From NCBI RefSeq assembly GCF_028712425.1, contig NZ_JAQTQD010000019.1, forward strand, positions 1 to 52,331: a DNA stretch of 52,331 nt. Direction: 5' to 3'. Under the pieces are notes generated by a model. That model did no database searches. It was not told the DNA's origin and saw only the letters and a program-made list of their open reading frames with translations. Source of the DNA: Methanoregula sp. Its GTDB lineage: Archaea; Halobacteriota; Methanomicrobia; Methanomicrobiales; Methanospirillaceae. The position numbers and the translations under genes are program-made. Of this stretch, positions 32,436-52,331 are shown one piece after another. Position 1 is the stretch's first letter, and every line of letters begins with the position of its first letter.

Positions 32436-32628
32436 AGATTATTTCTTGAATCCCAAGGGACCGCGTTAGCGCTTCGAAGACCGAACGGTCTTCTCATGCT
32501 TCGGGGCGAAAGCCCCTCAGCATCTCCGAGCGGAGAAGAAAATAATTCCGTCAGGAATTATTTACGGAACCCCGAGGGTTTACCCGAGGGGTGAAGGAAA
32601 TAATTTTGTTAAAAATTATTTCCTGAAT
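32436..32628. repeat. Stem-loop module array downstream of and including the ilvC stop codon
   Basis: Six stem-loops in about 190 bp: GAAGACC-GAAC-GGTCTTC (32476-32493), GGGGC-GAAA-GCCCC (32503-32516), CTCCG-AG-CGGAG (32524-32535), AAATAATTCC-GTCA-GGAATTATTT (32540-32563), GAGGGTTTACCCGAG (32574-32588), and a 13-bp-arm hairpin at 32595-32624 that contains the ilvC stop codon. The outer borders are near-identical 14-mers ATTATTTCYTGAAT at 32438-32451 and 32615-32628. The GAAGA..TCTTC and GAGGG..CCCGAG types recur at 38.6 and 41.7 kb. Confidence 0.75.
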
Positions 32629-33605
32629 TGGGGCATCATGCCCCGGACTTCCTTCCCGACTTCCTCGATGAGGTGCTCCTCGTCTGCCTTGGTGAGGGCA
32701 TTGAACATCGGGCGGTTGACCTGGTTCTCTAGCATCCATTCGCGGGCGAACTGGCCGGTCTGGATCTCTTCGAGGATCTCCTGCATCGCCTCGTATGCCT
32801 CGGGGCCGATGACACGCGGTCCGCGCGTGAGGTCGCCGTACTGCGCCGTGTTGCTGATGGACGAGCGCATGTTCGTCAGCCCGCCCTCGTAGATCATATC
32901 CACGATCAGTTTCAGCTCGTGGCAGACTTCGAGATATGCCATCTCGGGTGCATACCCGGCATCGACCAGGGTCTCGAACCCTGCCTTGACGAGGGATGTG
33001 CAGCCGCCGCAGAGGACGGCCTGCTCCCCGAAGAGGTCCGTCTCGGTCTCTTCGCGGAACGTGGTCTCAAGGACGACGGCACGGGTTGCACCGATGCCCT
33101 TGGCATATGCCAGCGCAATCTTGTGGGCCTTGCCGGTGTGGTCCTGGTGGACCGCAATAAGAGCAGGCACGCCCTTGCCCTCCTCGTACTGTCGGCGGAC
33201 CATCCTGCCGGGTCCCTTCGGCGCAACCATGATGACATCGACATTGGCCGGTGGGACGATTTGGCCGAAGTGGATGTTGAAGCCGTGCGAGAACATGAGG
33301 CACTTGTTCTCTTTGATATGGGGGAGGATCTCGGATTGGTAGATGGCCCCCTGGTGCTCGTCCGGAAGAAGGATCTGGATGATGTCGGCGGCCTTTACCG
33401 CATCGGCGACCTTCATCACTTTCATGCCATCCTTCGTTGCGGCGTCCCAGCTCTTGCCGGGGCGCAGGCCGATGACGACATCGAGCCCGCTGTCCCGTAA
33501 GTTCAGCGACTGCCCTCTGCCCTGCGACCCGTAGCCGACAACAGCGATCTTCTTGCCTTTTAAGACGCCGAGGTCAGCATCTGCCTCATAATATTTTTTC
33601 ATCAT
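32616..33605 (-). CDS. ilvC: Ketol-acid reductoisomerase (class I)
   Basis: A 329-residue NAD(P)H enzyme of valine, leucine and isoleucine synthesis that isomerises and reduces acetohydroxy acids. [22 protein letters not shown] (residues 20-41) is the nucleotide loop, [18 protein letters not shown] and the all-helical domain with [19 protein letters not shown] and [20 protein letters not shown] carry the Mg ligands. The start is M-M-K-K-Y-Y; either Met could initiate. The gene stands alone; ilvBN are not in the window. Its last codons (FRK-stop) lie in a large hairpin and appear duplicated 177 bp downstream. Confidence 0.96.
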
Positions 33606-38645: not shown

Positions 38646-38650
38646 GGTGA

Positions 38651-38837
38651 AGGTCATCAGACCTGAACCACGAGAAGAACGCGCTAGCGTTCTTCGAAAT
38701 TGCGAGGGTCATCAGACCCGAGAAACTAGAAGATTCCGAAGGATTCTTCGCTGTCGTGAGGGTTTGAAGAACCCGAGCGATGAGATGACCCGCCTGTTTT
38801 TCTTGCGTTGCTTTTTTTCTCCAGGATTATTTCCTGT
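38651..38837. repeat. Stem-loop module array downstream of frhB
   Basis: Five hairpins in order: AGGTC-ATCA-GACCT (38651-38664), GAAGAACGC-GCTA-GCGTTCTTC (38674-38695), GAGGGTCATCAGACCCGAG (38704-38722), GAAGATTCC-GAA-GGATTCTTC with one mismatch (38729-38749), and GAGGGTTTGAAGAACCCGAG (38758-38777). The run is followed by ATTATTTCCTG (38826-38836), the border block also seen at ilvC. No credible gene is present; the short open frame here encodes only repeats. Confidence 0.78.
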
Positions 38838-41677: not shown

Positions 41678-41712
41678 GATTGATCAGAGGGGCGCAAGAC
41701 CAGAGAAACGAC

Positions 41713-41757
41713 AAGAATCCGAAGGATTCTTTGCTATGATGAGGGATTAAATCCCGA
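41713..41757. repeat. Two stem-loops of the ilvC/frhB type after the P-type ATPase
   Basis: AAGAATCC-GAA-GGATTCTT (41713-41731, perfect) and GAGGGATTAAATCCCGAG (41741-41758). Their order, spacing and consensus match those at 38729-38777. They lie in the 3'-3' spacer of convergent genes and could terminate both. Confidence 0.75.
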
Positions 41758-49841: not shown

Positions 49842-49874
49842 CTGCCGGACGATCATTATATGATCGTCCGGCAG
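49842..49874. repeat. Perfect 15-bp inverted repeat with 3-nt loop
   Basis: CTGCCGGACGATCAT, loop TAT, ATGATCGTCCGGCAG, with no mismatch. CAGTGTT on the left and CAGTGTA on the right flank it in direct orientation. Not followed by a T run, so a simple terminator is unlikely. Confidence 0.85.
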
Positions 49875-51564: not shown

Positions 51565-52195
51565 GATCATCCTGATCCGGAAGTCAGAGGATTTTGCTGA
51601 TATAAATGAGAGATATTGAGTGGTTTATGTAAATATCCTTTTAATTCACCGAGCAAACATCTCGTCCTGATCAGAGTTTTACATATTTAGTATAGTCTAA
51701 TCACAACATTCCATAGACATTTTTCAACCAGAGTATCCTGAGTTTTTAAAGATAGATATGATCGTCTCTCAGCTCTTCAGGATAATGCGGAGATGGTATG
51801 GGCGTTGTGAAACTGGAATTATTGCAGCAACTCCATTCAGGATAACCAAATCCATTTAACATTTTTGCGCACTCCAATTCCAAATTTCCGTGCCCCGATT
51901 TTCCTGAATCCCGCGTAAATCTCTCCAATTTTGCTTTTCAAAATTTATTCATCCAAGCAGATAGCCTGCCAGGTTCTACTATTGTATGTCAAAGGGGCCC
52001 CGATGACACTAGACAAAATCGAAAGGAGGTCCGGAGGATCTCCTGCAACGTCGTTTGGACCGGGAAACAGTCGAAGAACCCTCACGGGTTCTTCTCCTCT
52101 TCCTGGTCGGAGAGGTCATTGACCTCGACGATGAGAAGGGAGGCGGAGCCGACCTTCGAACAAAACCAACAGAACAAACAAAGGAGGAAACAAAA
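51565..52195. other. Gene-free, AT-rich stretch and leader of the last gene
   Basis: About 630 bp. 51590-51960 is AT-rich; TTTATATC (minus strand, about 51599-51606) may be the DUF4062 TATA box. From 52003 an ATG opens a 39-codon frame (MTLDKIERRSGGS...) while another frame, open from 52013, runs without stop into the ATG at 52196 and looks codon-biased (EDLLQRRLDRETVEEPSRV...). A strong GGAGGT (52025-52030) and a GAAGAACCC hairpin lie here. Confidence 0.5.
52073..52094. repeat. Hairpin GAAGAACCC-TCAC-GGGTTCTTC
   Basis: Perfect 9-bp arms, 100 nt before the last gene's ATG. It is of the same type as those at 32476, 38674, 38729 and 41713, and may control or attenuate the downstream gene. Confidence 0.7.
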
Positions 52196-52331
52196 ATGGC
52201 AGATTTCGTACAGAAAACCGTAGTAAAGTCGGCGGTCCGCAAGCTCGCGGCCCCGATAGAAAATGTGGCAGCGTTCAACACGATCATCCAGTCGGTCACT
52301 ACCGACAACCCGTTTGCCTGCACAGCCTATG
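52196..52331 (+). CDS. Unrecognised protein, N-terminal fragment at the window edge
   Basis: The first 45 codons of a gene cut by the window end: MADFVQKTVVKSAVRKLAAP, then ENVAAFNTIIQSVTTDNPFA and CTAY. No family is recognised. AAAGGAGGAAACAAAA directly before the ATG is an excellent ribosome-binding site, so the product is probably abundant. A codon-biased frame continues upstream in phase, so an earlier start or a frameshifted N-terminus cannot be excluded. Confidence 0.75.
   Translation, partial: MADFVQKTVVKSAVRKLAAPIENVAAFNTIIQSVTTDNPFACTAY

Follow-up and report, generated by a model that had tools for sequence, protein, structure and literature searches.

REP and BIME repeats are familiar from textbooks as bacterial elements linked to RAYT transposases, and the BOX elements of Streptococcus pneumoniae are modular, intergenic and structure-forming. 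REP/BIME/REPIN sequences are short palindromes with more than 100 copies, are extragenic and arranged as doublets or alternating arrays, have a conserved unpaired foot, and sit between co-directional or convergent genes (PMC2817692, PMC3116915, PMC3733652). CGTC REPs have no dedicated transposase, are mostly extragenic and downstream of genes, and have been found in five bacterial phyla only (Di Nocera et al. 2013, PMC3733652). PMC3049150 mentions BOX. Among methanogens, the Methanomicrobiaceae (including Methanoculleus) have intergenic G-quadruplex/C-rich hairpin repeats, which lie mostly in convergent or head-to-tail gaps and combine four G-runs with a C3TC3 track (PMC8044849).

Here we describe a REP-like repeat from a Methanoregula genome (G000; 2.67 Mb, 56 contigs, 97% complete). 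The window, i.e., the whole stretch of DNA analysed (52,331 nucleotides), is its contig C7.

A module of two hairpins

An alignment of 37 copies gives a unit of approximately 54 bp (approximately 49 bp in Methanoculleus) that consists of a B hairpin, a short linker and an A hairpin, each hairpin based on an unpaired foot, 5'-GA...GA-3'. The consensus is TC-GA-GGGTC-ATCA-GACCC-GA-GA, the short linker, and GA-GAAGAANNN-loop-NNNTTCTTC-GA; outside the B foot there are two or three more base pairs, with which single-strand DNA folding agrees. A second module class has a longer B stem, TCC-GA-CTGGTC-ATCA-GACCAG-GA-GGA. The initial annotation had regarded A and B as two hairpin types, and the alignment replaces this with one module whose two hairpins have a common foot. 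A k-turn (tandem G-A by a 3-nt bulge) was ruled out by eye because the bulge is absent.

Every A and B hairpin listed in the initial annotation was found in the window sequence at its listed position, and modules were scored with R1, a covariance model with 37 seed copies. Two B+A modules lie in tandem on the plus strand behind frhB, separated by 1 nt. The first (38646..38699; R1 74 bits, E 2.8e-18) starts 11 nt past the frhB stop, immediately behind the frhB T-run. Its B stem is AGGTC-ATCA-GACCT (38651-38664, GA feet at 38649-38650 and 38665-38666), its A stem is GAAGAACGC-GCTA-GCGTTCTTC (38674-38695, GA feet at 38672-38673 and 38696-38697), and single-strand DNA folding (z = -5.7) recovers the outer pairs and the GA/GA gap. 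The second module (38701..38753; R1 58 bits, E 9e-14; fold z = -1.3) joins the B hairpin GGGTC-ATCA-GACCC (38706-38719) to the A hairpin GAAGATTCC-GAA-GGATTCTTC (38729-38749), which has one T-T mismatch and degenerate or lost GA feet. A third B hairpin follows on the same strand (38758..38776), recognised by its sequence GA-GGGTT-TGAAG-AACCC-GA as the start of a truncated module.

Between ilvC (32616-33602, minus strand) and the next minus-strand gene there is a minus-strand module (32472..32521; R1 42 bits, E 2.6e-9; fold z = -3.5), with its A hairpin at 32476-32493 and its B hairpin at 32503-32516. This minus-strand B hairpin is the partner of the A hairpin at 32476. The B hairpin listed at 32574 is real and has the usual GA/GA foot, but it is a separate, lone B-type hairpin with a longer outer stem (CCCC-GA-GGGT-TT-ACCC-GA-GGGG, 32570..32591, no strand assigned) and not that partner. 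AT-rich palindromes, AAATAATTCC-gtca-GGAATTATTT and AGGAAATAATTTT-gtta-AAAATTATTTCCT (window 32540-32624), flank it. A degenerate plus-strand module (41684..41736, A hairpin 41713-41731; R1 31.8 bits, E 2.3e-6) is placed between convergent P-type ATPase and ACR3-like genes, and next to it on the plus strand the B hairpin GA-GGGAT-TAA-ATCCC-GA (41741..41757) represents a second, truncated module.

Copies had been described as lying behind genes; the copy at 52073, however, is found within the 5' leader of a conserved gene whose start is at 52198. Here, R1 and leader comparison place a module on the minus strand (52069..52130, A hairpin 52073-52094; 45 bits, E 3.5e-10), overlapped in inverted orientation by a weak second module on the plus strand (52108..52161; R1 23 bits, E 5e-4). 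The conserved leader, ATGTCAAAGGGGCCCCGATGAC... (window 51950-52200; also L247 = C20:8150-8720, L271, L379 and L378), stands upstream of a 167-aa family, MADFVQ..., that has no Pfam or NCBIfam match, and modules are present in it both in paralogs and in a different genus. Module use in a 5' leader is possible in this family.

An Rfam 15 scan of the window returned tRNAs and SRP RNA only, with no module match above the gathering score. The window also has a perfect 15-bp stem hairpin, CTGCCGGACGATCATtatATGATCGTCCGGCAG (49842-49874), unrelated to the module. A block proposed as a border shared between loci, ATTATTTCCTG, occurs four times in approximately 760 kb of G000, and two of these occurrences are unrelated to modules, which rules it out as a family border.

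Covariation, copy number and spread

Stem changes had been described as compensating. Covariation among the seed copies of R1 is biased because they were picked partly for pairing, so the unbiased test uses 131 matches collected by a sequence-only model, R2. In these copies, 93.6% of cells are paired (83.0% in column shuffles) and 167 cells have changes on both sides of the stem, compared with 47 ± 7 in shuffles and 14-32 with slid partners, which bears the claim out. The A foot is unpaired yet most conserved (G 115/121 and A 117/120; G 105/105 and A 92/92), and the B foot is GA/GA in 28/40.

The module is abundant. BLAST with 38651-38837 hits 65 places in G000, and R1 has at least 142 matches there, confirming the further genome-wide copies that the initial annotation had proposed to look for. 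Six other Methanoregula genomes have at least 134, 139, 91, 83, 66 and 52 matches (all R1 genome counts are lower bounds, with 148 candidates scored per genome), and the remaining Methanoregula genomes have few copies or none. Two contigs chosen regardless of copies contain 17 copies in 400 kb, and 400 kb sampled from G040, a closed Methanoregula genome, gives 29 R1 matches.

Of 232 genomes of the order Methanomicrobiales, 53 have a match at E <= 1e-4. A further genus of the same family is represented among them, as are most members of Methanoculleus, which belongs to a second family. Closed genomes of Methanoculleus (2,478,101 bp) and Methanoregula (2,820,858 bp) are among those with the module. 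The Methanoculleus unit is GC-GA-CGGTTC..GAACCG-GA-GC NN GA-GAAGACC..GGTCTTC-GA, with feet that are invariant or nearly so in 22 copies. Its B stems vary (CGGTTC, CGGCTC, TGGTCC, CTGGCC, CGCTCC, CGGACG and others) and the partner strand matches in most copies; A-stem lengths could not be aligned among copies. Because this diverged form has the same feet, the family spans two families of Methanomicrobiales.

Proposed mobility, position and rival explanations

We consider it likely that these are REP-like elements, i.e., short non-coding palindromic DNA modules forming a non-autonomous mobile unit whose mover is not a Y1 enzyme. The single-stranded hairpins and their GA feet would be recognised by a host or element enzyme other than a Y1 (RAYT/IS200) transposase. 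Insertion would occur without a consistent target duplication, at times into the loop of an older module, and arrays may afterwards lengthen or shorten through recombination or slippage.

The clearest site is 3' of mcrA, where G000 and G040 can be aligned on either side and the difference between them is exactly 54 nt: G040 has a complete, reverse-orientation module inside the B hairpin of an older one, with at most 1 nt of microhomology at the junction. A third genome, G019, has one uninterrupted, degenerate module there, which makes insertion in G040 the simpler interpretation. At C50:53089, an exact 54-nt module in G000 is absent in G040, in a pair that may be paralogous. Species thus differ by one module at two sites, the direction of change being supported at mcrA only, and a difference of exactly one 54-nt module between orthologous sites means that the module behaves as a unit. 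The paralogous leader on C20 has an extra module between TGTC repeats. No consistent target duplication was found across the mcrA (none), C50 and C20 (TGTC) sites. At C19:27.9k, approximately 107 nt are missing in G040, and we do not count this as proof of insertion because 7-nt repeats explain it equally as a deletion. On these two or three comparisons of related sequences, mobility appears well supported.

Neighbouring copies form 35 same-strand (tandem) and 21 inverted pairs, in arrays with fixed spacings: 1-3 nt in tandem, -8, 5 or 8 nt head to head, and 9-10 or 40 nt tail to tail. A mosaic repeat of approximately 400 bp occurs in at least four copies in G000 (C46:1300-1700, C8:117500-118100, C14:33600-34020 and C18:106030-106440) and embeds modules together with GGGGG/CCCCC palindromes; the B-A module, and also a lone A hairpin, is cleanly present or absent among its copies. 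Elsewhere, at two orthologous elements, the whole A stem is swapped between near-identical flanks in two species (L383 versus G000:C12:17546; L211 versus G000:C19:7317). The swapped stems are perfect or near-perfect, suggesting that replacement may have occurred by conversion or template switching at palindromes rather than by stepwise change.

Some of this could also have arisen had a lost transposon spread the module once, leaving neutral debris, with slippage, gene conversion and segmental duplication as the sole means by which copies now persist or multiply. The tandem arrays (on C34, C17 and C36), the mosaic 400-bp blocks, the deletion with 7-nt microhomology at C19:27.9k and the conversion-like, en-bloc replacement of stems would all fit. 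However, palindromes and GA feet have been kept across two families while the stems changed freely, which needs a maintaining force, and the insertion at mcrA appears recent and shows no microhomology. We therefore regard debris as unlikely, though the best of the rivals.

The genomic position of the modules bears on a second rival. Using gene calls from a simple codon-based caller, 121 copies had usable flanks, and 110 of them are intergenic, although intergenic DNA makes up approximately 16% of the sample. Convergent gaps account for 27 of the 70 copy-bearing gaps (25% expected by length, p 0.007) and divergent gaps for 11 (27% expected, p 0.02). Of 32 same-strand gaps, 23 have the block closer to the 3' end of the upstream gene (p 0.010). 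The bias to gene ends for which the initial annotation had suggested counting copies is therefore present, at moderate strength: 37 of the 110 intergenic copies have a gene 3' end no more than 100 bp away, and a few modules sit in 5' leaders.

Gene ends with modules include frhB, ilvC, mcrA, mtrH and fwdC (mcrA and several others were named from sequence). Such genes had been called highly expressed, and by their identity they probably are. Past frhB, modules occur in G000 and, in other species, at loci L031, L035, L037 and L053; many others have none. Past mcrA, they occur in G000, G040 and G019 and nowhere else in the 128 kb scanned, and past mtrH in G000, G040, G048, G019, G002 and G004, the last of which has three copies genome-wide at E <= 0.01. 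A module or remnant lies 3' of mtrH in L355 (G004), L367 (G001) and L371 (G023), in genomes where other copies are few or absent, a hint that this site is an ancestral position. Modules also lie past the 3' end of L228 (G000:C19:28039-30999), which appears from its sequence to encode a D-family DNA polymerase large subunit with an apparent intein. Since approximately 2% of gene 3' ends have a module, recurrence at frhB, mcrA and mtrH is not chance; old shared insertions fit it as well as function does, because of common ancestry and because these genes were chosen after seeing G000.

A T-run ends archaeal transcripts, and at the frhB, mcrA and mtrH sites the module begins just behind the T-run that follows the stop codon. 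More generally, T-runs between stop and element were weakly enriched (33/59 versus 25.7 expected) and were set aside.

If the modules had been selected as RNA hairpins acting at the 3' ends of mRNAs, whether as intrinsic terminators, as processing sites or as stabilisers, then their bias to 3' ends and convergent gaps, their strong folding, and their positions past frhB, mcrA, mtrH and fwdC would make sense. However, at frhB, mcrA and mtrH they come behind the T-run that ends the transcript, two thirds of copies are more than 100 bp from any 3' end, and a few are in 5' leaders. Orientation relative to transcription is random (29:26). RNA made from one strand should enrich G-T mismatches at variable pairs, but these are about as common as A-C (34 versus 25, p = 0.30), so neither strand is favoured. 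An RNA role is thus quite improbable, and orientation and mismatches both point to the DNA rather than the RNA level.

For the mobile module that we prefer, copies may be retained best beyond transcription terminators and in convergent gaps. Some copies past the frh, mcr and mtr operons could have been kept for a long time, and these might act on the DNA level, managing supercoiling or stopping read-through. The fullest version of this reading is tentative: RAYT-independent mobile palindromes of archaea, whose tandem G-A feet are read by a nuclease or transposase, which insert into their own hairpins, and which have a DNA-level role past the frh, mcr and mtr terminators, serving methanogenesis genes under heavy transcription.

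The third rival is a true REP/RAYT system, in which a Y1 tyrosine transposase, of either the IS200/IS605 or the RAYT type, moves the modules. Hairpin pairs with an unpaired conserved foot, REPIN/BIME-like arrays, and an mcrA insertion without clear target duplication are what one would expect of it. However, the GTAG/CGTC tag is absent, and Y1_Tnp (PF01797) was found neither in G000 nor in any of seven element-rich Methanoregula genomes, including the closed G040, nor in the closed genomes G178 and G100. It matched in 4 of 53 element-positive genomes, one of the four below the cut-off. The RAYT route is therefore not applicable today: Y1 mobilisation of extant copies is largely refuted, a Y1 enzyme may have been ancestral and since lost, and we judge this rival very unlikely overall. 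A non-exhaustive search found no parent transposon, and there are no consistent MITE borders.

Short hairpins are generally abundant, but chance hairpins in GC-rich intergenic DNA can practically be dismissed given the 65 BLAST places, the 142 or more R1 matches, the unbiased covariation, and a shuffle control in which AAGAA/GAAGA-type hairpins with a stem of at least 8 appeared in none of ten first-order Markov trials versus 3 in the window.

Comparison with known repeat families

The searchable literature on palindromic repeats in methanogens, which largely leaves out subscription papers, contains no such family, in line with the initial annotation, which knew of no named one. As far as that literature can be searched, this is a genuine and undescribed order-wide archaeal family of REP-like repeats that lacks RAYT and whose foot motif is new. 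Positions past mcrA, mtrH and frhB are relevant when reading RNA ends or engineering those operons. Because closed genomes of cultured relatives carry modules, both insertion and an effect on transcription are testable.

The Methanomicrobiaceae G-quadruplex repeats come from the same order and are likewise intergenic, but their motif is different: by inspection of the consensus, each strand of our modules carries no more than a single run of three or more Gs, located in the B stem, and quadruplex potential is absent. The module resembles BOX in being modular, intergenic and structure-forming, but no shared sequence was recognised and the modular order is different. It resembles CGTC REPs in being mostly extragenic and without a dedicated transposase, and a preference for convergent and same-strand gaps was likewise reported by Di Nocera et al. 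(PMC3733652). However, its consensus has no 5' CGTC tag, no 8-9 bp stem opening with A-T pairs and no CCA tail, and its stems are freely variable.

The likeness to REP/BIME that was noticed at the outset holds for organisation: extragenic copies, alternating and tandem arrays, and mosaic blocks. Like REP/BIME/REPIN, the archaeal module is a short palindrome with more than 100 copies, extragenic, arrayed and with an unpaired foot, so it is a REP in the general sense (high copy, extragenic, palindromic), and it alternates in orientation as BIMEs and REPINs do, with spacing that is only partly regular. In contrast to GTAG REPs and REPINs, its unit is an asymmetric pair of different hairpins. Where those have a one-sided foot, an unpaired GTAG/GTGG 0-2 nt 5' of the hairpin, the module has GA on both sides of each hairpin, and its archaeal host has no RAYT or Y1 transposase. 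An archaeal family with another foot and no RAYT parts the REP lifestyle from its one known enzyme, and the absence of RAYT makes the hunt for another mobiliser concrete.
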